Of a stretch of DNA of 64,000 bases, positions 9,995-26,776 are shown in pieces. Numbering within the stretch: the first letter of the stretch is position 1; each line of letters starts with the position of its first letter. The DNA is from Gulosibacter chungangensis (lineage in GTDB: Bacteria; Actinomycetota; Actinomycetes; Actinomycetales; Microbacteriaceae). The DNA lies in the NCBI RefSeq assembly GCF_008831155.1, contig NZ_WBKB01000004.1:62001-126000 (forward strand), given 5' to 3'. The translations under genes were made by a program, and so were the position numbers. The notes below the pieces were generated by a model. It was given only the letters and a program-made list of their open reading frames with translations, had not been told where the DNA came from and made no database searches.

Positions 9995-10043
9995 CTGGCG
10001 GGTGCGCGGCGAGATCCCGGCTCGCGACCCTAGGATGGAAGGC

Positions 10044-11441: not shown

Positions 11442-12427
11442 GTATGAGTACTGGTGGTAAGCGCCCAACGGGCAACCGCAAGAAGAAGGGCCCGCTTAAG
11501 GGCACCGGTGGTCACGGGCGCAAGGCGCTCGAGGGCAAGGGACCGACCCCGAAGGCGGCGGACCGGCACTGGGCTAAGGACCGTCGTCGTCGCGCGGCTG
11601 CGGAGGCGGCCGGAAGCGGCCAAAAGCAGCCGCAGCGTCGCCCGCAGCAGCGCCGCAGCTCGCAGATTAGCGATGTCGAGCTCGTCACCGGTCGCAACTC
11701 GGCGCTCGAAGCCCTACGCGCCAATATTCCGGCGACCACGGTGTTTGTTGCCCAGGGTGCGGACCTCGACGATCGGATGCGCGAGATCGTGCAACTTGCC
11801 GCAAAGCGCAATATCCCGATGCTGGAGGTCACCCGACAGGAAATGGATCGCATGGTGCCCTTCGACGCCGTGCACCAGGGGGTTGCGCTCAAGGTCCCCG
11901 CCTATGAGTACGCCGACCCGATCGAGCTCCTCGAAAAAACCGTCTCGCGTGCCGAAGTACCGCTGTTTGTGGCACTCGATGGGATCACCGACCCGCGTAA
12001 CCTCGGGGCGATTGTGCGCTCGGTGGCGGCATTCGGCGGTCACGGTGTGATCGTGCCGCAGCGTCGGGCCGCGGGGATGACAGCCTCGGCCTGGAAGACC
12101 TCGGCCGGTGCCGCTGCGCGCCTACCGGTAGCGCTCGCGGGCAACCTGACGAATACCGTGAAGGCCTTCCGGGAAGCCGGGGTGTTTGTGATCGGTCTCG
12201 ACGGAGACGGCGACGTGTCGCTGCCCGGCCTCGATTTGGCGACCTCACCGCTCCTTGTTGTGGTTGGCTCCGAAGGCAAGGGTCTTTCGCGACTCGTGGC
12301 CGAGCACTGCGACGCGATCGTATCGATTCCGATTGACTCGGCTACCGAATCCCTCAATGCCGGTATCGCCGCTTCGGTCACCCTCTATGAGGTCTCGAAG
12401 CTGCGCGCGGAAGCCGCCGCTGAGTAG
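11438..12427 (+). CDS. rlmB: 23S rRNA (guanosine-2'-O-)-methyltransferase RlmB
   Basis: SpoU/TrmH-family methyltransferase that modifies 23S rRNA. The first ~75 residues are a basic, Gly/Lys/Arg-rich extension typical of actinobacterial members. An RNA-binding substrate domain then starts at ELVTGRNSALEALRA, and the SAM-binding knotted domain has the three SpoU motifs: GITDPRNLGAIVRS, VVVGSEGKGLSRLV and IPIDSATESLNAGIAASV. The ATG at 11438 overlaps the cysS stop by 4 bases. A second in-frame ATG is two codons later. The 3' flank holds short GC-rich repeats. Confidence 0.95.
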   Translation: MSMSTGGKRPTGNRKKKGPLKGTGGHGRKALEGKGPTPKAADRHWAKDRRRRAAAEAAGSGQKQPQRRPQQRRSSQISDVELVTGRNSALEALRANIPATTVFVAQGADLDDRMREIVQLAAKRNIPMLEVTRQEMDRMVPFDAVHQGVALKVPAYEYADPIELLEKTVSRAEVPLFVALDGITDPRNLGAIVRSVAAFGGHGVIVPQRRAAGMTASAWKTSAGAAARLPVALAGNLTNTVKAFREAGVFVIGLDGDGDVSLPGLDLATSPLLVVVGSEGKGLSRLVAEHCDAIVSIPIDSATESLNAGIAASVTLYEVSKLRAEAAAE

Positions 12428-12431
12428 CGCA

Positions 12432-12495
12432 CTGCCGCCCGCGCCCTGCCGCCCGCGCCCTGGGCACTTCGCTCTAGGCCCCGCGCTCTAGGCCC
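12432..12495. repeat. Short tandem duplications after rlmB
   Basis: CTGCCGCCCGCGCC occurs twice in tandem (12432-12445, 12446-12459), and CGCTCTAGGCCC occurs twice (12470-12481, 12484-12495). They fill most of the gap between the convergent rlmB and the ABC ATPase gene. Confidence 0.8.
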
Positions 12496-12501
12496 TGCGC
12501 G

Positions 12502-13581
12502 TCAGAGGCGTTCACCGGTGGCGGCATCAAAGAGGTGCAGCCGCCGGGTATTGGGAAGCACGGTCACCGTGTCGCCAATCTGGGCGTGATGACGTCCATC
12601 GACCCGGACGGTGAGTGGCAACTCGCCGCCGGGGAGTGCGGCACGCCCGTAGAGATAGCCGTCGCTGCCGAGCTCCTCCACGAGGTCCACGCGCATCCTG
12701 AGCCCGGTTTCACCGTCGGCTGCCACCGCAAAGTCTTCGGCGCGAAGCCCCACGCGAACCTCGCGGTCGCCCGCGAGTTGCGCGACCGTGTCGGGAACCC
12801 GAGTCGAAGCACCGCCGAGATCGAGCATCCCGCCCCGCAACCGGGTAGACCAGATCGTCATGGCGGGGGAGCCGATGAAGCTGGCCACGAATTCATTGGC
12901 GGGGGCGTCGTAGAGTTCCTGCGGCGCACCAACCTGCTGCAGTTTGCCGTGATTGAGCACGGCGATTCGGTCGCCCATGGTCATTGCCTCGGTCTGGTCA
13001 TGGGTGACATAGACCGTGGTGACGCCGAGTCGATTCTGCAGGGAGGCAATCTGCGTGCGGGTCTGCACGCGCAGCTTTGCGTCGAGGTTCGACAGGGGTT
13101 CGTCCATTAGAAAAACCTGCGGTTCGCGGACGATCGCGCGGCCCATCGCCACGCGCTGGCGTTGACCGCCAGAAAGTTCGCCCGGCCTGCGGTGCAGTAG
13201 CTCGCCCAGTCCAAGCAGGTCCACGGCCTCGCGTACCTTCACTGCACGCTGGGCCTTGGGCATGCCACTGGTGCGCAGCGGAAAGCCGATGTTTTGTTCC
13301 ACCGTCATGTGCGGGTAGAGGCCGTAGCTTTGAAAGACCATCGCCATGTCGCGATCCTTCGGCGGCACATTCGTGACGTCTCGCTCGCCGATGTGAATCG
13401 AACCGCTATCGACGGGCTCGAGCCCCGCGAGCATCCGCAACGTGGTCGTCTTGCCGCAACCGGATGGTCCCACCATCACCAGGAACTCACCGTCCCCGAT
13501 TTCAAGGTCAAAACGGTCAACGGCGTTACGGGTCGTGCCATGGAATCGACGGGTCACACCGCGAAAAGTCACTGTTGCCAT
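12502..13581 (-). CDS. Sugar ABC importer ATPase, UgpC/MsmK/MsiK type (orphan)
   Basis: Cytoplasmic ATPase of the CUT1 carbohydrate-importer class. The 359-residue protein has Walker A GPSGCGKTTTLRML, Q-loop MVFQSYGLYPHMTV, signature LSGGQRQRVAMGRAI, Walker B VFLMDEPLSNLDAKL and the H-loop YVTHDQTEAMTM, then a C-terminal regulatory TOBE/MalK-like domain. No permease or binding-protein gene is nearby, so it is probably a shared ATPase that energises several sugar transporters, like MsiK of Streptomyces; that is inference. I chose the ATG at 13579-13581, which begins ATVTFRGVTRRF; the longer frame has no family similarity. Confidence 0.92.
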   Translation of the reverse strand: MATVTFRGVTRRFHGTTRNAVDRFDLEIGDGEFLVMVGPSGCGKTTTLRMLAGLEPVDSGSIHIGERDVTNVPPKDRDMAMVFQSYGLYPHMTVEQNIGFPLRTSGMPKAQRAVKVREAVDLLGLGELLHRRPGELSGGQRQRVAMGRAIVREPQVFLMDEPLSNLDAKLRVQTRTQIASLQNRLGVTTVYVTHDQTEAMTMGDRIAVLNHGKLQQVGAPQELYDAPANEFVASFIGSPAMTIWSTRLRGGMLDLGGASTRVPDTVAQLAGDREVRVGLRAEDFAVAADGETGLRMRVDLVEELGSDGYLYGRAALPGGELPLTVRVDGRHHAQIGDTVTVLPNTRRLHLFDAATGERL

Positions 13582-13808
13582 GAAGAGCAATCGTAGTCCC
13601 CGTACGCAGGCCGACACATAGCGAAACAACGCGAAGTAAACCTCGATGATTTTTGGCTCGGGGTGCAGTCTTTCGCGAAAATGAACGTGGATTGAGATAT
13701 TTGCGAACCAGCGTCGATTAGGTTGAAGGCAATTCTGCGACCGACCACGTTTCAGCGGCGCGTTGGTTGCACAAACGGTACGTGACGAGCAGTTGGCGAG
13801 GAGGGACA

Positions 13809-16631
13809 TTGGCACATTCGTCCGCCAATCCGGTCAAGAATCACTCGGCCTCACCGGTGCAACAGCGCCGCCAATGGGCCGTGGAAGCGTTGCGGCAGGC
13901 GCAGGAACAAGCCGGAATGACTGTGCTCATCGAGGGGCTCGCGGGGATGGGGAAAACCTGTCTGCTGCGTGAACTGCGTACGGCAGCCCTCGATGATGGT
14001 CGCTGGTCACTCGTGGTCGTACACGCGGATGAATTTGAGGTCGGTGAGCCCTATAGCTTCATTGAGCGCATCGTTGCCGCGAGCGGGGTCACCGACTGGT
14101 ATTTCGAACCCGGTTCCTTGACCGACCCGATCGCTGTTGCCCGGGAATGCATCCGGCGACTCTTCGGCAATGGCAGCCATCCCGGCCGGGTGTTTCTGAT
14201 TGACGATGCGCAATGGATTGATCATCAGTCGCATCGGGTCCTGCGCTATCTGATCCCACGCATCACCCGGCGCCAAATGTTCCTCGCCTTCAGCGCCCGC
14301 ACGCCGCATGAGTCGGGGTCATTCGGTGAATTTCTACAGGCACTGGTAGCCGACAGCCATCTCGACACCAGCATCCACTTAGGGCCGCTGGATGCGCACG
14401 CCGTTAGCTGCCTCATCGCCGAGCGCCACGGTGCGGTCGTGGGCCCGGCTATCGCCCAGCAAATTGTCGACGAGACAGAAGGTTCCTTTCTCGAGATCGA
14501 CAGCATCGTGTCCGGCTTGACCCCGCAGGATGTTGAACAGTTGCAACTCGGTTGGCAGTCACCAACACGAGTCGGTCACGAGGCGAACGGTCCGCTGCTG
14601 CGCGAATTTAAGGGGCTTGATCGGGCGTCACAAGCCACGGCGGAACTCATCTCTGTCGCCGGCCATGTGCTCACCCGGACACAGATCGAAGCGGCGGCGG
14701 AGATCCTCGATGAGCCGGTACACCTTGACCGGGCAATCGAAGCGGGAGTGATCACAGAATCGCATGACGAGGAACACTTTCACACTCGGCATGCGCTCCT
14801 CGCGGAGGCGATTTCGGAATCCCTGGCTCCCGAACGTGCTCGCGCGCTCTACCGTGCGCTTGCAGAGGTCACCGATGGCTACCGTTCGCTGCGGCACCGG
14901 CTGCTTGGCGCAACGCACTGGGATGCGCAGCTTCAGACCGAGGTGCGGCGGTACGCCAGTGTGGCCGCGAGCGAGCGGAAATTTGGCAGTGCCAATGAGG
15001 TACTCCGCGCCGCACTCAAGCTGGTAACCGAACCTGCTGCCCGAATTGAACTCGTCGAGACGCTTGCGTTATTGCACCTGCAAGCAAGGACCGGCTATCT
15101 GGTGTTGGATTTATTGCCAGATATCGAGCAACAGCCACCGAATCTGCTGCGACACTTACTCGCACAGATCCTCTCGGCACACCGCGTTGGGGTAGAGGTT
15201 TCGCCTCGCGCGATGAAAGAAATATTGGCCACGGCGCCAACGAATGCCGATGAAGCGACGATCCTCGGGTTCTTTGCGTTCATGGTGGTGCTGCTCAGCA
15301 TGCGCAAAGCGGACACCTCGGCCGTTCCAGGGCTGATTGAACGGGCCCGTACCCTCGTGGCCGCGGCTCCGGCGAGCGGGGAAGAACTCACCGATTCCCG
15401 GCTTGCCTGGATGGTGGATCGGGACGGTCGCTTACTCGTGCTCGATTGCTATTCGATGGTGCAAGATCAACAGCAGGGTGATTTAGATGCGGTCATCGCA
15501 CGATTGCCCGCGCTCATCGCTCGGATCGACCGTACCCCCGATAGTCCGCTTAAGGTAGATGCGCTCGTCGCAATCGCCGGTGCGCAAGTGGCCATCGGCC
15601 GTGCTGATTTGGCGAGGGTTACCGCGGAACAGAGCGTGGAGATACTCGAGCGGGTGGGGGAACCTTGGGCAGCAGGCACTGCCCGTGTCATACTCGGGCA
15701 CTGCATGATCCTCGGCGGGGAATTGCGGGCTGCGGTTGAACTGATGGAACTCACCGAAGCTGTGACGCATAGTGCGCTCGATGTGGAAACACGATTCGGC
15801 TGGGCCGCCCTAAGACTGATGGTTTCGGCGATTGCCGGTCACGAGGACACCGACTTCTACGTGGAAGCGGCGCGGCGCTACGGCGAGATCGATTGGGAAG
15901 GCTACAGCCCAGATCTTGGTGTGATCGCCGAATGCGAGCTTGCCCGAGTGCGCGGCGATCATGCTGAAACATTACGGCTCACTTCGCCGGAAGCAATCCG
16001 CGGCTTCCGCAGCACCCAGCACGGGTTCCTCACTTATCGAGCGCTTGCTCTCATCGAACATGGTGAGGTTGCCGAAGCACAACACCTGATTGCGCAACTC
16101 GGGAAATGGCGCGGCAAGCAATGGCAGGAATACTGGGGCTCGCTCGACTGGCTGAACGCCAGGCTTGCACAGGCCGAAGGCGACCTGCAGACGGCTCGTT
16201 GGCATTTCCAATCTGCCGTGGAACATCGAAACTACCCGCTGCAACACGGGCTCGCGCTCGCGGACTATGGACGCTTTTTGGCGCAGCAGGGGGAAGACGC
16301 CGAGGCGCAAGAGGTCGTGCACTCGGCCACCGCGATATTGGCGGGTATTGGTGCCGATGGCTACCTGCCTCGGGTACGCGAGCTGGCAGATTCCGTGAGC
16401 GGTGGATCGACACGGCATCCCGAGGCACAGCGGTTACTCGATCGACTTACCGAACGCGAGCGCCAAGTGGCCGAACAGCTCGCGAAGGGGCGCTCGAACC
16501 CGCAGATCGCAGACTCGCTCGTGGTCTCCGTGGCCACGGTGCGGTCGCACATCTCAAATATTCTGCGAAAGCTGGGGCTGTCCTCCCGCGCAGAAGTCGC
16601 GCGACTGATCGGTGAACCCCGCAAAGAATAG
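13809..16631 (+). CDS. Large P-loop LuxR-family regulator (STAND/LAL type)
   Basis: A signal-transduction ATPase fused to a LuxR DNA-binding domain, about 940 residues. The N-terminal ATPase has Walker A IEGLAGMGKTCLLREL and Walker B VFLIDDAQWID. A long helical TPR-like middle follows, and the C terminus is a LuxR helix-turn-helix: LTERERQVAEQLAKG, then SVATVRSHISNILRKLG. I chose the TTG at 13809 because AGGAGG lies 4 bases before it; a GTG at 13782 is an alternative. Such proteins bind a small ligand and activate nearby operons. In mycobacteria a signal-transduction ATPase of this kind (IniR) controls iniBAC, and an iniBAC-like operon lies 3.5 kb downstream here. The ligand is unknown. Confidence 0.85.
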   Translation: MAHSSANPVKNHSASPVQQRRQWAVEALRQAQEQAGMTVLIEGLAGMGKTCLLRELRTAALDDGRWSLVVVHADEFEVGEPYSFIERIVAASGVTDWYFEPGSLTDPIAVARECIRRLFGNGSHPGRVFLIDDAQWIDHQSHRVLRYLIPRITRRQMFLAFSARTPHESGSFGEFLQALVADSHLDTSIHLGPLDAHAVSCLIAERHGAVVGPAIAQQIVDETEGSFLEIDSIVSGLTPQDVEQLQLGWQSPTRVGHEANGPLLREFKGLDRASQATAELISVAGHVLTRTQIEAAAEILDEPVHLDRAIEAGVITESHDEEHFHTRHALLAEAISESLAPERARALYRALAEVTDGYRSLRHRLLGATHWDAQLQTEVRRYASVAASERKFGSANEVLRAALKLVTEPAARIELVETLALLHLQARTGYLVLDLLPDIEQQPPNLLRHLLAQILSAHRVGVEVSPRAMKEILATAPTNADEATILGFFAFMVVLLSMRKADTSAVPGLIERARTLVAAAPASGEELTDSRLAWMVDRDGRLLVLDCYSMVQDQQQGDLDAVIARLPALIARIDRTPDSPLKVDALVAIAGAQVAIGRADLARVTAEQSVEILERVGEPWAAGTARVILGHCMILGGELRAAVELMELTEAVTHSALDVETRFGWAALRLMVSAIAGHEDTDFYVEAARRYGEIDWEGYSPDLGVIAECELARVRGDHAETLRLTSPEAIRGFRSTQHGFLTYRALALIEHGEVAEAQHLIAQLGKWRGKQWQEYWGSLDWLNARLAQAEGDLQTARWHFQSAVEHRNYPLQHGLALADYGRFLAQQGEDAEAQEVVHSATAILAGIGADGYLPRVRELADSVSGGSTRHPEAQRLLDRLTERERQVAEQLAKGRSNPQIADSLVVSVATVRSHISNILRKLGLSSRAEVARLIGEPRKE

Positions 16632-16673
16632 CTTTCTGGGATGCTCTGGCCAGGGTTCAATCTCGGGTGGGCG

Positions 16674-18599
16674 CTACTCCAATTCCGCGATGATCTCCTG
16701 GAGTTTTGCGAGGAGTTCGCCGCGGCTTGCCGCACCGAGACGGTTTCGCATCCGCGCGACGTGGTGTTCCACCGTCTTGGGCGAGATGAACAGCTGCTCA
16801 CCGATCGCCCGATAGCCGTGCCCCTCGGTGACCAGTCGAGCGACTTCCAGCTCACGACTGGTCAGTTGCGTGGTTTGTCGTGGTGTCGCGCCGTTCCCGG
16901 TCTGTGCCTTATTGATCTCGCGCGCGAGTTGCATGAGCGAGAGCGCCCCCTCGCGTTCCGGCTCCTGCAGGGCGGCTTGTCCTGCAAGTCGGGCCGCATC
17001 CCACACCTGGCCGTGTTCTGCGAGTGCCTTCGCGCTCATTGCGACGGACTCAAAATTAGCCTCGCGACGAAGCACCTGTAGCCAAGTCTGGCCGGCACTG
17101 GCAAGGGTTGCGGCGTAGGTGCTGGTTTGTCTCGCCGCGACCAATGCATTTGCATGCGGGATGAGGGTGGCCGGTGCATTGGCTTGGAACGCGGCTTGCA
17201 CTCCGGACCAGTGGAACGGTGCCGTCCAGACGATCGGTTCGTGGAGCCCAGTCGCAACTGACTGTGCACGCAGTGCGAGTTCTTCCGCACGCTCCGAATC
17301 ACGCAGTCTTGCGGCAACCACCATCATTTCCCCGAGTGGGAGGAGGTCAAAAAGCGTGAGTGAAATTCCGAAGGTGTGACCTCGCAAGGCTTGCCAAGCA
17401 TCCCGCATTGCGGTGAGATCCGTGCGGCGTCGTGCGATGCCTGCCAACAAACACAAATGGAAGAGACGATCGCGGTCACTGAGGTTTTCGACTGCTTGGA
17501 GCTTGGCGAGCGTGGCTTCCGCGGCATCCACCTGCCCCTGCACCATTTGCGACCAGGAACTCAACAAGAGATGACGCGTTCGGCCCCAGGCACCACCAAG
17601 GTTTGCCTTGAGGGCGCGGTCGAGGAGCGTCTGGGCGGTGGCGGGGTCGCCCCGGCCAATCGCGACGATGGCGGCTAACGCGGCCGGGCTCTCTGGCAGC
17701 AGCACATGTTCGCCCAGCGGCGCCAGTGCGGACACCGACCGCGCCAGTAATTCCAAGGCACCATCACCATTGCCGGATACGGTATTGAGGATGCCGTCGG
17801 CAAGGTCGACCAGGCCGGACTCATGATTCGTCAGGGTGTCATTGCCGAGTACCGAACGCCAATGCCGGGCCGCGGCCAAATCGCCCTTGCCGATGGCGGC
17901 AACGACCGCCCAGGCGGCATTGAACCCGATGCGTTCTGCCCCGATTCGCCGATACACGGCGAGCGCGCGCTCGAGACGATTACTTTGAATGAGCGCGGCG
18001 GCGGCAAGTGCACCGGCTTCCGCGAATACTTCGGGAGACGCCGTAGCCAACAAACCGTCGGTGAGCGACAGTACCTGCTCGGTCTGGCCTCGGTATGCCG
18101 CGTGAGTCGCCGTCATCACGCGGACATCCTCATCACAGTTCCCGCGGGCACGGGCCACCGTGGTCAGTGCCCCAATCGCCAGCGCATCCTCCGGATGCTC
18201 GCTTACGGCTTCGATGAGCGCTCGCAGTAGCGCCTCATCGGTGCAGCCCGATTCTGCGAGCGCCACGAGCGTGGCGGTGCGTGACGCTGCCCCTGATTCG
18301 ATCTCGGCGAGAATTTGGTCGTGAATTTCACGGAGTTGTTCGGCCGGGGCGGACGCGATGATTCTCGAGGCGGCGGCGGCGCGCAGTGCGCCATCGTGGA
18401 AATAGACGTCACCACTTGCCATCAGCTGCGTGAGATCCTCGTGAATTGCAGCCTTTGCGCGGGTGATTCTGCGGGACAGTTCTGCGGCATCACAGGGGCA
18501 CGAAACCGCGATGTGCATCAGCAGCGTGTCAACCTCTTGCTCACGGTCCTCAGTGCGCTGCGCAAAATGACTTTTCGGGAGGGTGTCCTGCGAACTCAT
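16674..18599 (-). CDS. LuxR-family regulator lacking a P-loop ATPase domain
   Basis: A 641-residue protein with a C-terminal LuxR helix-turn-helix (LTSRELEVARLVTEG, then ISPKTVEHHVARMRNRLG) and a long alanine-rich helical region resembling the TPR half of MalT/LAL regulators. The first ~100 residues look like the winged-helix segment that normally follows a STAND ATPase, but no Walker A or B is visible, so the ATP switch seems to be missing. It starts immediately after the stop of the Hsp70-like gene (the GTG at 18602 or the ATG at 18599), so the two are translationally coupled. It is convergent with the P-loop LuxR gene. It may respond through a partner protein, possibly the Hsp70-like one; that is inference. 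Confidence 0.8.
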   Translation of the reverse strand: MSSQDTLPKSHFAQRTEDREQEVDTLLMHIAVSCPCDAAELSRRITRAKAAIHEDLTQLMASGDVYFHDGALRAAAASRIIASAPAEQLREIHDQILAEIESGAASRTATLVALAESGCTDEALLRALIEAVSEHPEDALAIGALTTVARARGNCDEDVRVMTATHAAYRGQTEQVLSLTDGLLATASPEVFAEAGALAAAALIQSNRLERALAVYRRIGAERIGFNAAWAVVAAIGKGDLAAARHWRSVLGNDTLTNHESGLVDLADGILNTVSGNGDGALELLARSVSALAPLGEHVLLPESPAALAAIVAIGRGDPATAQTLLDRALKANLGGAWGRTRHLLLSSWSQMVQGQVDAAEATLAKLQAVENLSDRDRLFHLCLLAGIARRRTDLTAMRDAWQALRGHTFGISLTLFDLLPLGEMMVVAARLRDSERAEELALRAQSVATGLHEPIVWTAPFHWSGVQAAFQANAPATLIPHANALVAARQTSTYAATLASAGQTWLQVLRREANFESVAMSAKALAEHGQVWDAARLAGQAALQEPEREGALSLMQLAREINKAQTGNGATPRQTTQLTSRELEVARLVTEGHGYRAIGEQLFISPKTVEHHVARMRNRLGAASRGELLAKLQEIIAELE

Positions 18600-18601
18600 C
18601 A

Positions 18602-19840
18602 CTATCGAACCAGGCTTTCATTCCGCGCGGTGGTTGGAATCCAACTCGTATCGGGGGTGCCGATGGGTTCGTGTGTGGCGGCGGGGTCCAAGAGCGTGTC
18701 CATTTCTTCTTCTGGAGCCGGGGCCGGGGCCGGGGCCGGGGCGACACTCGATTCGCCTTGTGGCACCGCGGTTTGCACGGGCCCGGTCCACTGCGAGACA
18801 CGATCTCGAATGAGTTTCCAGAAGGTGCCAGTCTCTGGCTCCCGTACGGGCTCTGCGTGGTGCTCTGATTCGGTGAGTTCAGTCATCGGTTGGGCGTTGA
18901 GGAGCCGCTCTGCGCCGCGCACTACGATCAGCGTCGGGTCGTCTGGGACATAGACTTCCAGCCCGAGGTCTGCGGAGAGCCGTTGACTGATCAGAGGCAT
19001 ATTGGCAAGTCCGCCCATGAGCAGGACCGCCTCGATTGGTGCCGCACATTGCTCAAGGACGGCTCCGACGGTGCGGACCACAGTATCTGCCCATGGGGTT
19101 GCGAGTTCCTCGAGCTCGCTGCGGACCATCCGCAGCCGCGGCGTTGTCTCTGGAAATTCGGGCTGCATGGATTCCGTCACGGACAGCGAGAGCGACTCGC
19201 GCAGGGCACGGCAGTCAGCGAGCGAGGCGCGTGCGGCGGCTAAGACGTCCGGGTCGGTGGGATCAACGGTGTAGCCGTCGGAAGCGAGACCTTGGAGAAC
19301 ATGCTGGAGTACTGCGACGTCGAGGTCATCGCCGCCTTCGTTGTGGACGAGAACCGGACTGGTGAGTGCGGTTGGGCGAGTGTTGCAGTTTTTCACCACG
19401 ACAGCACTCACTTGGCTTGCACGCAGACCCACCACGGCCACCGTGCTGGGGAGCGGTTCGGTAGACCGTTGATACTCGACCACTGCGGCTTCGGCGTCAT
19501 TGACCATCAGCACATCGAGGCCACGCGCGCGGAGCGCATCCTGGACGCGGGCGAGGGTCCGCGGCGTCCACCAGCCGGGAACCGCGACTGCGGCCCGAAA
19601 ATCCGCCGGCGCATCCACTGATTCAACAGCCAGGGCTTCGCCGACGGCGGATGCGTACATCTCGTGCGCGGGGTAAAGTTCGGCACGGTCTTCGGTGACC
19701 GTGACATAGGGGAGATCGTCCGCAACGCGGATCAGTAGATCCCGCGGGAAATCTTGGTTGATGGAAGCGACTTCACCATTGCTGAAGGTGACTTTCGACA
19801 CCCCTACTTCTATTCCGACCACGTTGTCTCCCACCATCAT
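18602..19840 (-). CDS. Hsp70/actin-fold protein with degenerate ATPase motifs
   Basis: A 412-residue protein with the layout of the Hsp70 nucleotide-binding domain but no substrate-binding domain. The phosphate-1 loop reads GIEVGVSKVTF where DnaK has a GIDLGTT-type sequence. The phosphate-2 region reads VAVVGLRASQVSAVVV and lacks the usual D-GGGT. The adenosine motif is kept (VLLMGGLANMPLI). Connecting elements typical of Hsp70 are present (AVAVPGWWTPRTLARVQDA; LMVNDAEAAVVEY). The C terminus is an Ala-Pro repeat (APAPAPAPAPEEE) and a polar tail. It heads an operon with the P-loop-less LuxR gene and is divergent from the IniB-like gene. A regulatory or scaffold role seems likelier than folding. 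The start is the ATG at 19838-19840 or the next codon. Confidence 0.75.
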   Translation of the reverse strand: MMVGDNVVGIEVGVSKVTFSNGEVASINQDFPRDLLIRVADDLPYVTVTEDRAELYPAHEMYASAVGEALAVESVDAPADFRAAVAVPGWWTPRTLARVQDALRARGLDVLMVNDAEAAVVEYQRSTEPLPSTVAVVGLRASQVSAVVVKNCNTRPTALTSPVLVHNEGGDDLDVAVLQHVLQGLASDGYTVDPTDPDVLAAARASLADCRALRESLSLSVTESMQPEFPETTPRLRMVRSELEELATPWADTVVRTVGAVLEQCAAPIEAVLLMGGLANMPLISQRLSADLGLEVYVPDDPTLIVVRGAERLLNAQPMTELTESEHHAEPVREPETGTFWKLIRDRVSQWTGPVQTAVPQGESSVAPAPAPAPAPEEEMDTLLDPAATHEPIGTPDTSWIPTTARNESLVR

Positions 19841-20156
19841 TTGCAATCGCGCGAACGATCGTGCTGCGCGAATCCCCTATAGCGATTTTGTTTATTGCGA
19901 CCCGGTAACAGTCCGAAGCGTAACCCGCAGGGAGCGAGCAAAGATTGCTGAAGCCGCAGAGCTGTTGCAACTCAAAAGTCTTGAATCCCCTAATCGGTCC
20001 CCTAGTCCACCTCACCCTCGGAGTGAGCCTGTAATGGGTGGTTAGGGAGAAAAGCAGGGGGCGGTGCCCCGTGGTGGGGTGGGTATTTCGGTTCCTAGTC
20101 TCGAAAGTGCCGAAATCGAAAAATTCGATCTCGGATTTCTTGGGAAAGGAAATCTC
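19841..20156. promoter_or_regulatory. Divergent control region of the hsp70-like/luxR and iniB-like operons
   Basis: This 316-base gap has no gene. It holds a direct repeat TCCCCTAATC (19986-19995) and TCCCCTAGTC (19998-20007) with a 12-base period, and the inverted heptamer TTAGGGA at 20042-20048, so CCCTAA-type words face each other. Paired direct repeats are typical of MalT/LuxR-class activators. Both LuxR genes of the locus are candidates for binding. Nearer the iniB-like start is an AT-rich stretch (GAAAAATTC) and then the ribosome site GAAAGGA at 20144-20150. I could not place -10 or -35 boxes confidently. Confidence 0.45.
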
Positions 20157-21599
20157 ATGGCAACTACAACTGCTGATCTGTTGAGCTTCATCCTCAGCCT
20201 GCTGGGGGACCCGGTGAAGTCAGAAGAATTCTCGGCTGACCCCGACACGGTGCTGTCGGCAAACGGCCTTGACGACATCACTTGCGCCGATGTTGACGCA
20301 ATTACCCCTCTCATCACCAACGCAACCAACGGTTTCATCCAGGTGAACCAGTCCGGTGCTAACAACGCGGGTGGTCACGCAGGTGGCGGCGGACACCACG
20401 GCGGTGGCGGACACCACGGCGGTGGCGGACACCACGGCGGTGGCGGCGGCCATCACGGTGGCGGCGGTGGCGGTCACCACGGTGGTGGCGGCGGTGGTCA
20501 CCACGGTGGCGGACAGCCGGAGCCTTCGGAGCTCATCCAGCAGCTCGTGCAGAACGTCTCCGTAGTGAACTGGGACAACAGCGGCATCATCCAGAACATC
20601 TGGGGTGCTGACGAGGTCACCCAGGCCTTTGCGACCGACGGTAGCTTCGCGGTCACCGGCGATGTCTTCGCGAAGGACCCGATCGTGGTCGGCGACGGCA
20701 ACGCGGTCGGTCACGGCAACGTTGTCGCTTCAGGCGACGCCGTGGCAGCTGGCCGCGACGTGATCCAGAACAACGGTGATGGCAACCTCGCGCTCGGCAG
20801 CAACCAGACCGTGGCACAGGACGGCGGCGTTGTGGCCGGTGGCGACTACACCTCCAACCGCAACTCGAACAACAACACCGACTCGGGTAACACCGTGACG
20901 CTCACGCACGACGAGTCGATCACGGTTGGGGATGTTGGGGTCGACCTCTCGGAGAACACCAACACCTTCGTTGGTGGCAACCAGAACAACGGCGACAACT
21001 CGGGCAATGCGACCTGGAACCACAACTCGAACAACACCGTTGCTTCGAACAACAACGTCAACTCGAACAACAACGAGGACTCGTTCAACACCGACAACTC
21101 GGTTGAGGTTGATGTTGAAGACTCGTTCAACACCGACAACTCCACCAACATCGGTGGTAACCAGAACAACGGTGACTTCTCGGGCAACAACGTTGAGGTT
21201 GACATCGAAGACTCGTTCAACACCGACAACTCCACCAACCTTGATGTTGAGATCGATGACTCGTTCAACGACAACTCGACCAACCTTGATGTTGATGTCG
21301 ACGACTCGTTCAACGACAACTCGACGAACACCGAGGTTGACGTTGAGGTTGAGGACTCGTTCAACACCGACAACTCGGTAGAGGTAGAGCTGGAAGACTC
21401 GTTCAACGACAACTCGACGAACACCGAGGTTGACGTTGAGATCGAGGACTCCTTCCAGGACAACTCGGTTGAAGCAGAGTTCGAGTGGGAGTACGAGAAC
21501 AACGAGTACTCCTACGAGAGCAACAACAACGACTACAACTACCAGAGCAACAACGATGTGCTCAGCAACAACGAGGTTGATGTCGAGATCGGCGGCTAG
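20157..21599 (+). CDS. iniB-like: IniB-like repeat protein (IniB N-terminal domain, Gly-His and Asn/Asp repeats)
   Basis: A 480-residue protein. Residues 1-~55 (start ATTTADLLSFILSLLG, then VLSANGLDDITCADVD) match the N-terminal domain of mycobacterial IniB. Next come six HH pairs separated by glycine runs (~74-120), then a G-D/N-rich region (~165-245, e.g. GDGNAVGHGNVVASGDAV) that suggests short beta-solenoid turns, then eight [ED]DSFN-DNS repeats alternating with EVDVEV-type strands (~307-440), and a Tyr/Asn-rich acidic tail. There is no signal peptide or membrane helix. Asn is coded almost only by AAC, suggesting high expression. The start is set by GAAAGGA 6 bases before the ATG at 20157. 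It is followed by a hairpin and two dynamin-like genes in the iniB-iniA-iniC order. Function is unknown; IniB of mycobacteria is induced by cell-wall inhibitors. Confidence 0.8.
   Translation: MATTTADLLSFILSLLGDPVKSEEFSADPDTVLSANGLDDITCADVDAITPLITNATNGFIQVNQSGANNAGGHAGGGGHHGGGGHHGGGGHHGGGGGHHGGGGGGHHGGGGGGHHGGGQPEPSELIQQLVQNVSVVNWDNSGIIQNIWGADEVTQAFATDGSFAVTGDVFAKDPIVVGDGNAVGHGNVVASGDAVAAGRDVIQNNGDGNLALGSNQTVAQDGGVVAGGDYTSNRNSNNNTDSGNTVTLTHDESITVGDVGVDLSENTNTFVGGNQNNGDNSGNATWNHNSNNTVASNNNVNSNNNEDSFNTDNSVEVDVEDSFNTDNSTNIGGNQNNGDFSGNNVEVDIEDSFNTDNSTNLDVEIDDSFNDNSTNLDVDVDDSFNDNSTNTEVDVEVEDSFNTDNSVEVELEDSFNDNSTNTEVDVEIEDSFQDNSVEAEFEWEYENNEYSYESNNNDYNYQSNNDVLSNNEVDVEIGG
20377..20517 (+). repeat. 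Gly-His coding repeat
   Basis: Tandem units of about 15-21 bases built on GGCGGACACCACGGCGGT encode GGGGHH blocks. Six HH pairs occur, with the glycine spacer growing from four to six residues along the array. Third-codon differences are few at first and increase toward the 3' end, which fits recent duplication of the first copies. Confidence 0.9.
21076..21480 (+). repeat. Coding repeat for [ED]DSFN-DNS motifs
   Basis: Eight copies of a core like GAAGACTCGTTCAACACC encode [ED]DSFNTDNS or DDSFNDNS, each separated by 4-20 residues of alternating acidic and hydrophobic residues (VEVDV, LDVEI, TEVDVEV). The period is variable, roughly 42-90 bases. The alternation suggests stacked beta strands with acidic, possibly cation-binding, turns. 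Confidence 0.85.
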
Positions 21600-21668
21600 T
21601 CTCACCAGACTGGACACCAACCCAGTAGTGTGAGGGCACGCTCAACGCGGAGCCAACACGCGCAGAAC

Positions 21669-21715
21669 GAATGCTGTACCGGAGCAACAGCGAATGTCGC
21701 CCCGGTACAGCATTC
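21669..21715 (+). terminator. Hairpin between the iniB-like and iniA-like genes
   Basis: GAATGCTGTACCGG (21669-21682) pairs perfectly with CCGGTACAGCATTC (21702-21715) around a 19-base loop, followed by TTCTTC. It lies between the iniB-like stop and the iniA-like start, so it could be a partial terminator that makes the repeat protein far more abundant than the GTPases, or a 3'-stabilising structure. Confidence 0.75.
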
Positions 21716-21765
21716 TTCTTCACAGCTCTCGCACCCCAAATCGTGGCATCTGCCGAGGAGTTTGA

Positions 21766-23613
21766 ATGTTGTTATCGCAAGTCCGCGCCACTGCAGATCA
21801 ATTGCAGTCAATCGCTACGCAGTTGCGGGAGATTGCGCAGCGAAGCGGCAGGGCCGATCTCACGGAAAAATTTCACGAAGTTGATCGTGAACTTGCTGAC
21901 ACTACCACCGAGATTGTGGTGGTGGGGCAGATCAAACAGGGCAAGAGCGCTCTGGTCAATGCGCTCGTTTCGGCACCCGTATGCCCGGTCGATGACGTCC
22001 TGGCAACCTCGGTGCCGACAATGGTGCGGTGGGGTGAACAACCGACCGCCACACTCGTGACCGAGATGGCGGAAGACAAACGCACCATTCGCACGAAGAT
22101 AAATCCCGCAAAGCTCCGCGAGCATGTCACGGAACTCGCGGGGGAGTCAGGGCTGCTCGGTAACGTGCGGGCGGAAATCACCCTGCCGCGACAGATCCTC
22201 TCCGAAGGTCTCGTCTTCATCGATACGCCGGGAGTGGACGGTATCCGAGTGCATGCCGCTCGAAACGTCACGCTGCTCCCGCAAGTGGATGCGGCCATCA
22301 TGGTGACTGACGCAACGCAGGAGCTTACCGAGCCGGAACTCGCTTTTCTCAAGCAAGCGGTAGCGCTGTGTCCGCACGTGGTCGGCGTTATGAGTAAGAC
22401 CGACCTGCAACACCAGTGGCGCGACATCCTGGAAGCAAATACCGAGCACATCGCCAAAGCCGATATCGACATTCCGCTGCTGCCGACATCCTCATTGCTG
22501 CACAGCCTGGCCGACCGCGATGCCGATCCGGAGCTGCGAAAGGTTGCGCGCATCGACGACCTCGCAGAGCACCTGCGCACGGATGTCCGGAAAAAAGTAC
22601 TCGCTGACCGCCACCGCAGCATTGCCAAGGACATTGGCACCATCGGTGAGCATCTCGCGATGGTGATCGAAGCCGAACTCCTGGCACTCAAGGACCCGGG
22701 CGATGGCAAAGCAATTGTGCAGAACTTGCAAAAGGCCGAGGAATCCGCACAAAGCCTCATGGACCGCTCTGCCCGGTGGCAGCAAACACTTTCCGACGGC
22801 TCGGCCGACTTGCTCTCCGATATCGAATATGACCTCCGAGACCGACTGCGTGCGGTGGGACGGGAGGCGGAACAGCTTATCGACGCGAGCGACCCCGGCA
22901 AGTCCTGGGAAGAAATTGGCTCGTGGTTGGCAGAATCCGTCACCCTCGCAATCTCAGACAACTTCGTGTGGGCGCATCAGCGCAGCGTCCACCTCGCGGA
23001 AGTGGTGGCACAGCATTTCTCCACCGACGGACGCACCGCTGTGCCGGACCTTGCCGTAGCCGACACCGGGCAGTTGATTAGCTCCATCGGCGGACTCGAA
23101 TCCGTGTCGAGCGGTCACCTCTCGATCGGCCAAAAGCTCATGATCGGGATGAAGGGTTCCTACGGTGGGGTGCTGATGTTTGGCCTCATGACCACACTGG
23201 CGGGGATGGCGCTGGTCAACCCGATCTCGATCGCCGCCGGTTTGATTATGGGCGGGTTCGCGTACCGGCAAGAGGCAAACTCACGTCTGGAACAGCGTCG
23301 CAATGAAGCGAAAATGGCGGTTCGAAAGCTGGTTGATGAGTCGATCTTCCAGGTCAGCAAGGAAGCGCGCGACCGAATCAGCCGCATTCGCCGGGTCTTG
23401 CGTGATCATTTCTCGTCTGCTGCAGAGGACCTCAAACTTTCACTTGGTGAATCGGTCAAGATGGCGAAGAAGCAGGCGAACGTACCGCAGTCTGAACGTA
23501 ATCGGCGCACAGTGCAGGCCGCGACCGAATTACAAGAGATTCGGGCACTGTGCAGGCAGGCCATCGAGGCAACCGAGGTGGAAATCAATGGAGATTGGAG
23601 TGGCAATGAGTGA
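21766..23613 (+). CDS. iniA-like: Dynamin-like GTPase, IniA type
   Basis: A 615-residue bacterial dynamin-like protein. GTPase motifs: G1 VGQIKQGKSALVNAL (~48-62), a G2 threonine in LATSVPT, G3 FIDTPGVDG and G4 MSKTD. A long helical stalk follows, and near residues 458-505 is a strongly hydrophobic hairpin (GGVLMFGLMTTLAGMALVNP and AAGLIMGGFAY) expected to insert in the membrane. Mycobacterial IniA is about 640 residues with this layout and remodels membranes. GAGGAG lies 6 bases before the ATG. It overlaps the next GTPase gene by 8 bases. A role in membrane maintenance under envelope stress is inferred from family. Confidence 0.9.
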   Translation: MLLSQVRATADQLQSIATQLREIAQRSGRADLTEKFHEVDRELADTTTEIVVVGQIKQGKSALVNALVSAPVCPVDDVLATSVPTMVRWGEQPTATLVTEMAEDKRTIRTKINPAKLREHVTELAGESGLLGNVRAEITLPRQILSEGLVFIDTPGVDGIRVHAARNVTLLPQVDAAIMVTDATQELTEPELAFLKQAVALCPHVVGVMSKTDLQHQWRDILEANTEHIAKADIDIPLLPTSSLLHSLADRDADPELRKVARIDDLAEHLRTDVRKKVLADRHRSIAKDIGTIGEHLAMVIEAELLALKDPGDGKAIVQNLQKAEESAQSLMDRSARWQQTLSDGSADLLSDIEYDLRDRLRAVGREAEQLIDASDPGKSWEEIGSWLAESVTLAISDNFVWAHQRSVHLAEVVAQHFSTDGRTAVPDLAVADTGQLISSIGGLESVSSGHLSIGQKLMIGMKGSYGGVLMFGLMTTLAGMALVNPISIAAGLIMGGFAYRQEANSRLEQRRNEAKMAVRKLVDESIFQVSKEARDRISRIRRVLRDHFSSAAEDLKLSLGESVKMAKKQANVPQSERNRRTVQAATELQEIRALCRQAIEATEVEINGDWSGNE

Positions 23614-25102
23614 TTCTCTGGAATCGGCCCGGGAGCTGATCGCCGCAGCGCGCGAACGCTATCAAGGCGACGCGGCAGCACTGACCATCCTCAACGAACT
23701 CAATGACCGGCTCGATCAGCCGCTTCGGGTCGCGCTGGTGGGATCGGTGAAGGCGGGCAAGTCAACGCTCTTGAACGGGCTGCTCGGTGAGCGGCTCGCG
23801 CCGACTGATTCTCGAGAATCCACTCGCGTGGTCACGTGGTATCACTACGGGAAAACCCCCACGGTGCGGGCACGCCTGGCGAATGGCAAATCGGTGCCAT
23901 TGCCGGCCAGGCGGGATCGCGACCGCCACGAACTCGACCTCAACGACTTGGCTCTGCAGGACTACGACCGACTCGATGTCACCTGGCCAGCCCCGGGCAT
24001 CCAAGGCATCACGCTGATCGATACTCCCGGCATTGCTTCGATCTCCCAAGACGTCTCCAACGAAACCAACCGCTTCCTGCTCCCTGAGCAGGGGGCTTCG
24101 GGGGCGGATGCGGTCGTGTACCTCTTGCGCTCGCTCCACGAATCCGACATCCGCTATTTACAGGCCTTGGATGCGCGCACTCGCCATGGCAATGCCGCCA
24201 TCGGCTCCATCGCGGTGCTCTCACGTGCGGATGAACTCGGTTCAGGACGGCTCACGGCAATGGTGTCGATCAATCAGGCTGTCGAGCGATTGCGGAAGCA
24301 TCCTGATTTGCAGGGGGTCTGCGAAACGATCGTGCCGCTCGCGGGTCTCATGGGGATGGGCGCGATGACCCTCCGGCAGGCCGACTACGCCGTCTTGCGG
24401 CAGTTGGCGGCGCTTGCGCCCGAGGACACGAATCGTCTCTTGGTGAGCGCAGAGCTGTTCATTACGGCGAAGGGCGACTCCCTGCCATCAGAGCGCACCC
24501 GCGTAGAACTTGTCGACCGGTTCGGCATGTACGGTATTCGCATTGCCATTGCGGTGATCCGCGGCGGCATCAATGACGCCAGTGACCTCGCGGCAGAGCT
24601 ACTGCGACGCAGCGGGCTGGATGAACTTCGACGGGTTATCGACGTGCACTTCACTCAGCGGCAGTCCGAGTTGAAGGCGCATTCAATCGTTCATGCCCTG
24701 CACCGGCTCCTGCGTCAGAAGCCCGTGCCCGGCTCCGAAGAACTGCTCGTGCGGGCGGATGAACACATGTCGCGCACGCACACGTTCACGGAGATGCAGT
24801 TGCTGGGGCGTATTGCCGGTCAGCAGGTTAAGCTGGGTGCCTCTTTGGTGAATGAGCTGGAACGACTCATCGGGGGTCACGGTGCGGATACCGCGACGCG
24901 GCTCGGGTTCGAAGAACCGCAGGATAACGAGATCATGCTTGCCAGTGCCGTGGAGCACTTGCAGCGCTGGCGGGGGCTGCTGGATAACCCACTGCTCGAC
25001 CGACCGACCCTGCTGGCCTGTCGGGTAGCCGAGCGCAGCTGCGAAAATATTATCGTTGCGCTCAACAATGAGCAGCAGGTGGCGGTTATGCCTCGCGGGT
25101 AG
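23606..25102 (+). CDS. iniC-like: Dynamin-like GTPase, IniC type
   Basis: A 498-residue partner of the preceding GTPase; mycobacterial IniC has almost the same length. Motifs: G1 VGSVKAGKSTLLNGL (~41-55), G2 threonine in ESTRVVTW, G3 LIDTPGIAS and G4 LSRADELGSG. The C-terminal half is helical without an obvious membrane hairpin, unlike the IniA-type protein, so it may work as the soluble half of a heterodimer. I chose the ATG at 23606, which overlaps the upstream stop by 8 bases and follows GGAG; the frame upstream of it is a shadow of the iniA-like gene. Its 3' end overlaps the convergent membrane-protein gene by 17 bases. Confidence 0.88.
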   Translation: MSDSLESARELIAAARERYQGDAAALTILNELNDRLDQPLRVALVGSVKAGKSTLLNGLLGERLAPTDSRESTRVVTWYHYGKTPTVRARLANGKSVPLPARRDRDRHELDLNDLALQDYDRLDVTWPAPGIQGITLIDTPGIASISQDVSNETNRFLLPEQGASGADAVVYLLRSLHESDIRYLQALDARTRHGNAAIGSIAVLSRADELGSGRLTAMVSINQAVERLRKHPDLQGVCETIVPLAGLMGMGAMTLRQADYAVLRQLAALAPEDTNRLLVSAELFITAKGDSLPSERTRVELVDRFGMYGIRIAIAVIRGGINDASDLAAELLRRSGLDELRRVIDVHFTQRQSELKAHSIVHALHRLLRQKPVPGSEELLVRADEHMSRTHTFTEMQLLGRIAGQQVKLGASLVNELERLIGGHGADTATRLGFEEPQDNEIMLASAVEHLQRWRGLLDNPLLDRPTLLACRVAERSCENIIVALNNEQQVAVMPRG

Positions 25103-25829
25103 TGTCCTCGAAACCGTCTTCGGGAACCTTGAGGTTCTCGAGATCGATCTGGTCGGCCTGAGCTTCTTCGGATACAGCTTCTTTGGACTCAGCCCGACCA
25201 GTTCGCAGTTTGGTGAGTTCCTCAATGGGACGCCCGGAGGTGTCATGGAACGCCGTGATGGGCGTTGCCGGAGCCTTATCGCTCTGTCGCAACCACGTCG
25301 TCACTGCCGTGCCTTGGTAGAGGACTGCCGCTGCCAAGAACGCGAGGGCGGCAAGCGCCCCGAGCACCAGTTCCAGCGCGTTCTCCTCGCGCAGGGAGGC
25401 GACGAGGAAAGCGGCTGGGATGAATAGCGCAAGCAAGATGAACATAATGATCCGGCCGGCAGAATTCTTGCTCGCCTTGACCGAAGTCGCAGCCATCAGC
25501 AGCCCCAACGTCACCATTAACGCGAGGATGCCCATGATGCCGAGCATGATGTAGACGGCCTTTTCTTTGTCCTCTTGGGCGTAGTCCTCTTCGAGGTTGT
25601 CATTGAGGACCGCAATGAAGCTTTCGCGAATCTGATCAATGTGCAGGATGGCGATGAGGAGGACCCCCAGGAAGCACAACGTCCCAAAGAGCGCCAGATA
25701 GTACGCGACCATTACTCGCTGCGGGCGGTCAATGCGCTGTTCTTTGATGAGGCCCGTGGGAATACTCGGGCGTTCGGGTGCTGCCTCGCGTTGTGCATCC
25801 CAACTGGGAATATTGCCTGTCTCAGTCAT
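25086..25829 (-). CDS. Four-helix membrane protein of unknown function
   Basis: A 247-residue protein with a polar N terminus (~40 residues), four predicted membrane helices (about 42-64, 93-113, 126-144 and 152-172) and a long acidic cytoplasmic-type tail. The loop after helix 1 is rich in D and E (DNLEEDYAQEDKEKA). The ATG overlaps the stop of the DsbA-like gene upstream (ATGA), so the two are translationally coupled. Its end overlaps the IniC-type gene on the opposite strand. No family recognised. Confidence 0.75.
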   Translation of the reverse strand: MTETGNIPSWDAQREAAPERPSIPTGLIKEQRIDRPQRVMVAYYLALFGTLCFLGVLLIAILHIDQIRESFIAVLNDNLEEDYAQEDKEKAVYIMLGIMGILALMVTLGLLMAATSVKASKNSAGRIIMFILLALFIPAAFLVASLREENALELVLGALAALAFLAAAVLYQGTAVTTWLRQSDKAPATPITAFHDTSGRPIEELTKLRTGRAESKEAVSEEAQADQIDLENLKVPEDGFEDTTREA

Positions 25830-26602
25830 TGGTTTTCCTTGAGGACGTATTCCAGTTCGGCGGGACCGGGGATGGATTCTTTGCCGTCGATAGTCTTGAC
25901 GACGTTAACGCCGTCGATTCTGATTGTCGGTGTTGCCGATACATCAACGCGCTTCGCCTCTTTGAGGGCCTCTTCCAGCCACGGGCCAAAGGTACGGTTC
26001 GCAACACACTCGCTAATATCGCCAGCACCCGCCTGTTCGGCAAACGTAATAAGTTCCTGATCGCTGAGGCCTTCACCGCCCTGCGCGGGCTGGTTTTCCA
26101 TGAGCAGCGAATGCATGCTGGCGTAGGCGAGTACCCCGGCTTGATCGGCCACACAAACCGCGGCATTGGATGCCCTTTGGCTGTACTCGTCAGTGGATGC
26201 ATTCACGAGGAAGGCGATCGGGTGATAGGTGAGGCTGATGTTTCCGGCAGCGAGTTGCTCATTGAGGAAATCGCCTGATTCTTCGTGGAACACACTGCAG
26301 GTGGGGCAGAGGAAGTCCTCGTAAATTTTGATTTCTGTGGGGTTTGCATCCGCATTCACCGAGTCTGAGACCAGATCGGGTGTGATCGCGAAGCCGTAGT
26401 CTTCGGTGGCGTTTTGCGGGCTGGCGACGGTGGCGTCGCTGGGATTGGCCCGCAATTGAATCCAGATCAGCGACGCCGCGCTCATGAGCACGCCGATGGT
26501 GACAAAAATGGACAGCACCATTCGCTGCCGTTGGGTGTCCTTGCGGTGTTTTTGCCGAATGGAATCGGCGAGCTCTTGCCGCTGACCTGCACCAACACCC
26601 AT
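25826..26602 (-). CDS. Membrane-anchored DsbA-like thioredoxin-fold protein
   Basis: A 258-residue protein with a cytoplasmic N terminus, one signal-anchor helix (~29-50), then an extracytoplasmic thioredoxin-fold domain. The active-site motif CPTC is in EDFLCPTCSVFHEE, and the cis-proline region is VSATPTIRIDG. An inserted helical domain between them fits the DsbA fold, so it probably makes or isomerises disulfides in exported proteins. Two more cysteines (AAVCVAD and ISECVAN) could form a structural pair. I chose the ATG at 26600-26602, with GAGGGAG 6-7 bases upstream. It is coupled to the four-helix membrane gene. Confidence 0.85.
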   Translation of the reverse strand: MGVGAGQRQELADSIRQKHRKDTQRQRMVLSIFVTIGVLMSAASLIWIQLRANPSDATVASPQNATEDYGFAITPDLVSDSVNADANPTEIKIYEDFLCPTCSVFHEESGDFLNEQLAAGNISLTYHPIAFLVNASTDEYSQRASNAAVCVADQAGVLAYASMHSLLMENQPAQGGEGLSDQELITFAEQAGAGDISECVANRTFGPWLEEALKEAKRVDVSATPTIRIDGVNVVKTIDGKESIPGPAELEYVLKENQ

Positions 26603-26776
26603 AAAAAGCTCCCTCGCCGTGGCATAGAAAACGCAACACCTAATGGGTCGAATCATAAGTGAACCACGGTTACATAAACGCGCGCGCTTTGGTCCAATAC
26701 CGCTGATTTCGCCGCGCGGCCGCGAAGTCGCCCGGATTGGTGATTCGAGCACATTTCCCCCTAGGATGGACCTCGC

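Follow-up and report, generated by a model that had tools for sequence, protein, structure and literature searches.

The iniBAC operon is widely used as a reporter of mycobacterial cell-wall damage, and trehalose and a rise of ATP are reported to accompany its induction. IniR is reported to be the direct and dedicated activator of iniBAC, with a chromatin immunoprecipitation (ChIP) peak upstream of the operon (PMC5760070). The AAA domain of IniR has been put forward as the sensor of an ATP burst, a point that the authors leave open (PMC6104191), and a repressor, HpoR, is reported to have a site of another kind within the iniBAC promoter (PMC13413693). In vitro, membranes are severed by IniA, and the Mycobacterium smegmatis protein requires R63 for GTP hydrolysis and R488/K489 for lipid binding (PMC6715688). 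A dnaK-like gene beside iniR of M. smegmatis is mentioned in a single sentence (PMC5760070), beyond which an Hsp70 partner was not found among the open-access papers listed; nor was any account found among them of ini loci outside the mycobacteria, or of an IniR without its ATPase. Of two further papers listed, one uses iniA/iniB as names of samples and the other reviews mycobacterial responses. The subject of the present analysis is an ini-type locus in a 64,000-nucleotide stretch of the 3.24-Mb genome of Gulosibacter chungangensis, a member of the Microbacteriaceae (contig NZ_WBKB01000004.1, positions 62001-126000; hereafter the window). With a probability of roughly 0.55, this locus is an acquired ini-type envelope-stress island in which IniR would act on a CCCCTA element to drive iniBAC, with an Hsp70-like protein as the partner of IniR.

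Effector genes and occurrence of the locus

Eight genes share 13.15 kb of the window and encode a STAND-LuxR regulator, IniR, an Hsp70-like protein, IniB, IniA, IniC, a protein with four transmembrane segments (4-TM) and a DsbA-like protein (Table 1). The first of these is read on the forward strand. The iniR and hsp70-like genes are convergent to it on the reverse strand, with the end of the latter touching the start of iniR at position 18602; iniB-iniA-iniC are divergent from this pair, and the 4-TM and DsbA-like genes are convergent to the operon. A first-pass annotation made from the sequence alone had drawn the unit at 13809-25102. The genes it named do lie there, but the unit is wider, at about 13603-26753, with the two membrane/thiol genes on its right.

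That annotation had also described a repeat protein with an IniB N-terminal domain, followed by two adjacent dynamin-like GTPases of 615 and 498 residues in the order iniB-iniA-iniC, with an 8-bp overlap of the GTPase genes, as an ini-type system in a Microbacteriaceae-like organism, and each of these points is borne out. In a profile search, IniB scores 52.1 bits against NCBIfam IniB_NTERM (NF038175), for which the cut-off is 40. Its N-terminal domain is followed by a His/Gly-rich stretch and then by an Asn/Asp/Ser-rich tail with DSFN-type repeats and a net charge of -64. Both GTPases match Pfam Dynamin_N (IniA, E 3e-19; IniC, E 6.9e-13), their open reading frames (ORFs) overlap by the 8 bp reported, and IniA aligns nearly end to end, over residues 22-587, with the solved M. 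smegmatis IniA (6j72; E 4.8e-126), the P-loop Lys and Ser being retained. In a tree of 60 rows, the 26 IniA rows, including that of the window, form one side of a branch with a Shimodaira-Hasegawa approximate likelihood ratio (SH-aLRT) value of 99, and the 26 IniC rows, again with the window, one side of a branch with a value of 89, below the 95 mark; the other dynamin pair of the genome falls outside both groups. The GTPases thus group with mycobacterial-type IniA and IniC and not with unrelated bacterial dynamins, as far as can be told from a quick tree that has no bootstrap values and was flagged for long branches meeting; the IniR tree discussed below is of the same kind.

Some variation in the effector genes was seen among relatives. 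The residue aligned with R63 of M. smegmatis IniA is an invariant proline among seven Microbacteriaceae IniA sequences. Where iniAC is convergent to iniB, a further Asn/Asp/Thr-rich ORF lies upstream of iniA (L050:16323-17108, L051:1437-2414, L052:16564-17595), and in the Pseudonocardia loci L123, L133, L134 and L101 two or three IniB-domain genes stand ahead of iniA.

The comparison rests on a census in which 80 loci were the best 80 of 511 relatives of the IniA alignment, such that close Arthrobacter-type copies are over-represented. Altogether, 124 of 127 loci were kept, three being duplicates, and seven without IniR in reach were left out of the 117-row IniR tree. Loci L200-L217 were called mycobacterial-type on two grounds, an IniR score above the NCBIfam cut-off and a genus code common to all of them. 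At the level of the family, IniR exceeds 290 bits in 11 of 150 genomes, that of the window included. Across the class, 38 of 394 genomes have an IniR match with an E value no higher than 1e-40, and in 18, all of one genus, the match exceeds 750 bits; within the order IniB_NTERM is matched at E 0.001 in 11 of 248 genomes, in 10 of them above the cut-off. The organisms that host an ATPase-less IniR are not known to make mycolic acids.

IniR and its candidate operator

The LuxR protein encoded next to iniBAC covers positions 270-826 of the 827 in the NCBIfam IniR model (NF038181; E 9.6e-88) and no others, and at 295 bits it falls below the equivalog cut-off of 750. Its predicted structure (AlphaFold2, AF2; mean confidence, pLDDT, 92) consists of a winged-helix-like fold, a helical superhelix and a LuxR-type helix-turn-helix (HTH). 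A fold search of the PDB returned no specific match, only helical-repeat proteins with weak and unspecific similarity (best E 3e-4). No other part of the locus is matched by the ATPase part of the model, and the abutting Hsp70 ORF leaves no space for such a domain 5' of iniR. Of the two LuxR regulators that the first-pass annotation had counted as additions, one is therefore IniR itself minus its ATPase domain; the other, STAND-LuxR, was correctly seen as added, the addition being that of the clade.

Among the 117 IniR proteins placed in the tree, the ATPase is present in 67 and missing in 44, with six unscored (four cut by contig ends, two unclear), and at least seven changes of state are needed. 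Counts alone cannot separate loss from gain, but losses are the simpler reading, since a complete IniR occurs in mycobacterial-type loci and in most lineages. Such natural ATPase-less forms suggest that the AAA domain, the proposed ATP sensor (PMC6104191), is dispensable in evolution.

A tandem CCCCTA repeat is found about 160 bp ahead of iniB in the window, and the iniB upstream regions of the clade share ATCCCCTAATCCATCCCCTAATCCACCTC-like sequence. The pattern CCCCTA-N3-6-CCCCTA has a single match in the whole genome, at this repeat; the reversed control likewise has one match, elsewhere. Under a strict definition (CCCCTA followed by CCCCTA or CCCCTC at a spacing of 3-6 bases), 35 of 140 upstream regions have the tandem, at a distance of 129-178 bp from the IniB start, and these account for 35 of the 40 strict matches when both strands of all loci (4.86 Mb) are scanned. 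With the pattern slightly widened, 49 of 140 regions have it at -200 to -130, against 0.2 expected from local shuffling; the reversed control is somewhat raised, at 3, 11 and 7 of 140 for the successive 50-bp bins between -250 and -100, so that the composition of C-runs is part of the tandem signal. Only the tandem arrangement is rarer than chance: the single box TCCCCTAATC, with one mismatch allowed, was seen twice in the window against 1.8 expected. From position and conservation, the tandem repeat is likely to be the operator of IniR, with binding as a prediction. This agrees with the IniR ChIP peak upstream of iniBAC and its dedicated regulon (PMC5760070), and no IniR binding site was found in two papers that were text-searched for one, including that with the HpoR site (PMC13413693). 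A scan for sigma-70 promoters over 19700-21800 found none. The element resembles MalT boxes.

A second candidate element is the inverted repeat GGGG-N4-7-CCCC, present at -150 to -50 in 66 of 140 iniB upstream regions against 4.5 expected by local shuffling. Its mirror control, CCCC-N-GGGG, is also raised (32 of 140 upstream regions at -150 to -100), and G/C-run composition is thus part of this signal too. The possibility that it is the own site of STAND-LuxR was discarded, as it occurs in many loci without a STAND-LuxR gene.

The Hsp70-like protein and the proposed switch

The Hsp70 had been taken by the first-pass annotation for an added control part. Instead, it is a regular partner in ini loci: 107 of 111 scored loci contain a protein with an Hsp70 nucleotide-binding domain (NBD), and the dnaK-like gene beside M. 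smegmatis iniR has been noted already. In 91 of the 111 loci with scored IniR status, the gene immediately precedes iniR and shares its strand. For the 44 with an ATPase-less IniR this is the arrangement in 41, with two copies elsewhere in the locus and one cut by a contig end; for the 67 with a complete IniR the corresponding numbers are 50, 14 and one, and two loci have none. The view that the mycobacterial iniBAC system has here been supplemented with two LuxR regulators and an Hsp70 is accordingly quite improbable. It is right about IniB, IniA and IniC, and about STAND-LuxR as a clade addition; against it, one LuxR protein is IniR and the Hsp70 accompanies ini loci generally.

The usual plan of the ini-locus protein is an Hsp70 NBD, one hydrophobic segment and a mostly Pro-rich tail, as in L044. 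No substrate-binding domain was found in the examples checked, and the Hsp70 matches of the window protein end near the end of the NBD. By a plain hydropathy rule for transmembrane (TM) segments, the hydrophobic segment is present in 60 of 64 loci with a complete IniR and in 26 of 43 with an ATPase-less one. Two of the loci with ATPase-less IniR have very long tails, in Hsp70-like frames of about 1175 and 1454 codons (L069:4970-8494 and L227:10200-14561).

In the window protein the match to Pfam HSP70 is confined to a portion of the NBD, and an Hsp70 fold is still predicted for it (AF2 pLDDT 83), with Hsp70s as its best PDB matches (E 5e-17). In this protein and its counterparts in five related loci (L064-L068), the phosphate-2 loop DLGGGTFD is replaced, by VGLRASQV and similar sequences, and the first phosphate loop has changed too, whereas the adenosine-side motif is retained in part (motif names follow general Hsp70 usage). 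Hydropathy found no TM segment in these six proteins, and the remaining tail has 42-93 residues. On these motifs, the Hsp70-like protein of the window clade is a predicted soluble pseudo-ATPase.

All eight genes, in unchanged order, recur in the five related loci, L064 and L065 (Aeromicrobium), L066 and L067 (Leucobacter) and L068 (uncultured Microbacterium), which span three genera and two families. With matches taken as the best 14 per window protein, their identity to the window over matched segments is 46-48% for STAND-LuxR, 52-64% for IniR, 42-54% for the Hsp70-like protein, 26-34% for 4-TM and 46-56% for the DsbA-like protein; for IniA it is 55-63%. All six DsbA-like proteins have a CxxC motif, and the true start of that of the window probably lies inside its ORF. 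Aeromicrobium terrae (L069) has a DsbA-like gene but no ortholog-level STAND-LuxR or 4-TM match among the matches listed. Judged by these matches, the additions of the window clade comprise STAND-LuxR and 4-TM, together with the DsbA-like protein that it shares with the outlier L069.

The STAND-LuxR protein could itself be the real activator of iniBAC in this clade, with the ATPase-less IniR as a brake or a relic, which we consider rather unlikely. An ortholog is found in all five relatives, convergent to iniR, and all six proteins have an intact P-loop (Walker A) and Walker B motif; that of the window also has a GerE domain. However, the CCCCTA element is also found upstream of iniB in loci without an ortholog among the matches listed, ATPase-less IniR likewise occurs where no such ortholog is listed (L069 and the Arthrobacter group), and IniR is under comparable purifying selection, as the ratios given below indicate.

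An alternative for the Hsp70-like protein is that it acts on the dynamins or on IniB, in assembly or disassembly, and not on IniR, much as eukaryotic Hsc70 works on clathrin coats; this we hold to be possible, though less probable than a role with IniR. The genome contains a second dynamin pair (L042: 4186-6045 and 8287-9747; 256-265 kb of C16), whose GTPases adjoin IniA and IniC, respectively, in the tree, on long branches that were flagged. Its two genes enclose one for a 725-residue protein that combines intact Hsp70 motifs and a Pro-rich linker with a single TM helix and an outside domain of some 190 residues, and no IniR was found among the gene matches at that locus. In six Pseudonocardia loci (L086, L101, L123, L125, L133 and L134), moreover, hsp70 stands on the iniB side and iniR beyond iniC. 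The second pair is the main support for this alternative; it speaks for an old link of membrane-anchored Hsp70s with dynamin pairs, and suggests a wider dynamin-Hsp70 partnership in Actinobacteria. Against a chaperone of dynamins are the prevailing position of hsp70 directly ahead of iniR, on its strand, and the motifs of the window-clade protein, which, with part of the adenosine-side motif and no phosphate-2 loop, is ill-suited to a chaperone cycle. Two neighbouring genes at the second pair (L042:4186-12969) encode proteins with DxDGDG-type repeats. Two or more dynamin matches of low identity were obtained in each of 11 genomes of the genus; the accompanying Hsp70 was examined in the genome of the window only.

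In the preferred reading, with IniR on the CCCCTA element and the Hsp70-like protein as its partner, IniR would bind the tandem element and turn on iniBAC upon envelope damage, and the cytoplasmic membrane would then be remodelled or repaired by IniA and IniC, partnered by IniB with its acidic, repeat-rich sequence. In most relatives, the membrane-spanning Hsp70-NBD protein encoded directly ahead of iniR probably gates IniR. Within the window clade neither IniR nor the Hsp70-like protein is likely to hydrolyse ATP, and the soluble pseudo-ATPase could be at most a binding partner of IniR independent of nucleotide hydrolysis. ATP-dependent and envelope-side control has perhaps moved to the STAND-LuxR, 4-TM and DsbA-like proteins, which is the weakest step of the scheme. 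A bolder version, which we put forward tentatively and regard as less probable, holds that, across Actinobacteria, ini systems in truth sense envelope stress through the overlooked membrane-spanning Hsp70-like protein, with a cytoplasmic head, one TM helix and a wall-facing, often Pro-rich tail, and that it gates IniR; in the window clade the receptor would have become a soluble scaffold while STAND-LuxR and the membrane/thiol proteins took over. Were this so, it would explain the repeated loss of the IniR ATPase. In either case, the Hsp70-like partner and a short DNA element emerge as testable parts of the iniBAC switch.

Several observations weigh against the preferred reading. The strict tandem repeat is found in 35 of 111 loci, not in all, and in four of the 18 mycobacterial-type loci (L201, L203, L204 and L205). 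IniA of the window has Pro in place of R63 and Gly-Phe in place of R488/K489, by the 6j72 alignment with a numbering offset of 2 inferred from the P-loop. An intact phosphate-2 motif of the Hsp70-like protein is only somewhat more frequent beside an ATPase-less IniR, with 32 of 43 loci, than beside a complete one, with 31 of 64 (kinship uncorrected), and 11 of the 43 ATPase-less loci lack both the IniR ATPase and an intact phosphate-2 motif. These phosphate-2 counts also speak against a handover of ATPase function from IniR to the Hsp70 as a general rule.

That the locus is simply decaying, with IniR and the Hsp70 on their way to pseudogenes, is very improbable. Domain loss in IniR and loss of motifs and the TM segment in the Hsp70 would fit decay, as would an iniR split over two overlapping ORFs in Candidatus Leucobacter sulfamidivorax, a metagenome-assembled genome (MAG; L066:4932-7056), an in-frame stop in the 4-TM gene match of Leucobacter sp. 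G161 (L067:13465-14043) and the fast evolution of the 4-TM protein, with ratios of nonsynonymous to synonymous substitution rates (dN/dS) of 0.29 and 0.57. However, several genera share the same reduced IniR and Hsp70, which were seen in six loci with that of the window counted. Between L064 and L065, dN/dS by the NG86 method is 0.17 for IniR, 0.18 for the Hsp70-like protein and 0.18 for STAND-LuxR, and across three pairs IniR and the Hsp70-like protein have values of 0.17-0.33 (for IniR, the two pairs with L066 cover only 324 residues), which argues against decay, with the caveat that dS is 0.9-2.4 and synonymous sites are close to saturation, a further point against the preferred reading.

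The island and known systems

The coordinates of the locus and its features are collected in Table 1.

Table 1. Features of the ini-type island, in window coordinates
Feature	Position	Strand	Evidence
Island, no alignment at the same site in genus relatives G395/G020	13603-26753		Flank alignment
STAND-LuxR (LAL/MalT-like) regulator, 954 aa	13767-16631	+	GerE 1.6e-17; AAA_16 5.4e-12; Walker A/B intact
IniR without AAA ATPase domain, 642 aa	16674-18602	-	NF038181 E 9.6e-88; AF2 pLDDT 92
Hsp70-NBD-like protein, 412 aa from ATG 19840 (ORF from 19846)	18602-19840	-	Pfam HSP70 2.2e-11; AF2 pLDDT 83
Tandem direct repeat CCCCTAATCGGTCCCCTA, proposed IniR operator	19987-20004	+	Unique pattern in genome; conserved position 5' of iniB
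Inverted repeat GGGGGCGGTGCCCC, possible second promoter element	20057-20070		GGGG-N4-7-CCCC counts upstream of iniB
IniB (ATG 20157; ORF from 20064)	20157-21599	+	NF038175, 52.1 bits
IniA, dynamin-like GTPase, 615 aa	21766-23613	+	6j72 E 4.8e-126; tree; Dynamin_N
IniC, dynamin-like GTPase, 498 aa (ORF opens at 23303)	23606-25102	+	Tree; Dynamin_N 6.9e-13
4-TM protein of the clade, 247 aa	25086-25829	-	Four hydrophobic segments; 26-34% matches in L064-L068
DsbA/thioredoxin-like protein, CxxC	25826-26752	-	Thioredoxin_4 1.1e-21; N-terminal hydrophobic segment
tRNA-Thr(TGT), right border of island	26777-26852	+	3' end duplicated round a different block in G395

In two genus relatives, G395 and G020, the flanks align with the window up to 13602 or 13597 and again from 26754 or 26782, and the aligned parts lie 67 bp apart in G395 and 59 bp apart in G020. 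The block is either an insertion here or a loss in these relatives. Gain is favoured, because IniA of this type is present in one of 11 genomes of the genus, that of the window, the other ten giving matches of 24-32% identity only, as the second dynamin pair does. Between 13401-13900 and 26501-26900, a search for exact repeats of 10-30 bp, direct or inverted, found none. The right side differs in G020 as well, where alignment past the tRNA-Thr gene picks up again only at window position 35480. In G395 (L261 and L262), a different block of about 22 kb lies 3' of the same tRNA-Thr and is closed by 53 bp that duplicate the 3' end of the tRNA exactly, so this place is used repeatedly. The tRNA as attachment site of the present island is a lead only, given that the island is 5' of it and lacks border repeats of at least 10 bp; ARAGORN found no tRNA in L064-L068. 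To the left, the ORFs at about 8651-13602, the last of them a MalK/UgpC-type ABC ATPase gene bordering the island, have aligned counterparts in G395/G020 and are outside the island.

Compared with mycobacterial iniBAC (M. tuberculosis, M. marinum and M. smegmatis; iniR / iniB* / iniB-iniA-iniC), the window has the same IniB N-terminal domain, orthologs of IniA and IniC in the same order and the sensor and DNA-binding parts of IniR, and the tandem CCCCTA boxes upstream of iniB are shared with four of the 18 mycobacterial-type loci under the strict pattern. It differs in an IniR without the AAA ATPase, in the extra STAND-LuxR, 4-TM and DsbA-like genes, in a predicted soluble pseudo-ATPase as its Hsp70, in the Asn/Asp/Ser repeat tail of IniB and in the lack of conservation of IniA R63, R488 and K489. 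The ini loci of Arthrobacter, Pseudarthrobacter and other Actinobacteria (L043-L052 and L064-L143) combine hsp70, iniR, iniB, iniA and iniC as the window does, and in the Arthrobacter group IniR is mostly ATPase-less. Unlike the window, these loci are mostly collinear, their Hsp70 motifs are mostly intact, usually with a TM helix and tail, and no STAND-LuxR ortholog is among the matches listed. With the MalT/LAL-type STAND regulators, IniR shares a winged helix, helical superhelix and LuxR HTH, here without the NTPase, whereas STAND-LuxR shows the full plan. Finally, the window protein shares the actin-like NBD fold of DnaK/Hsp70 chaperones, but it lacks their substrate-binding domain and has lost the phosphate-2 loop.

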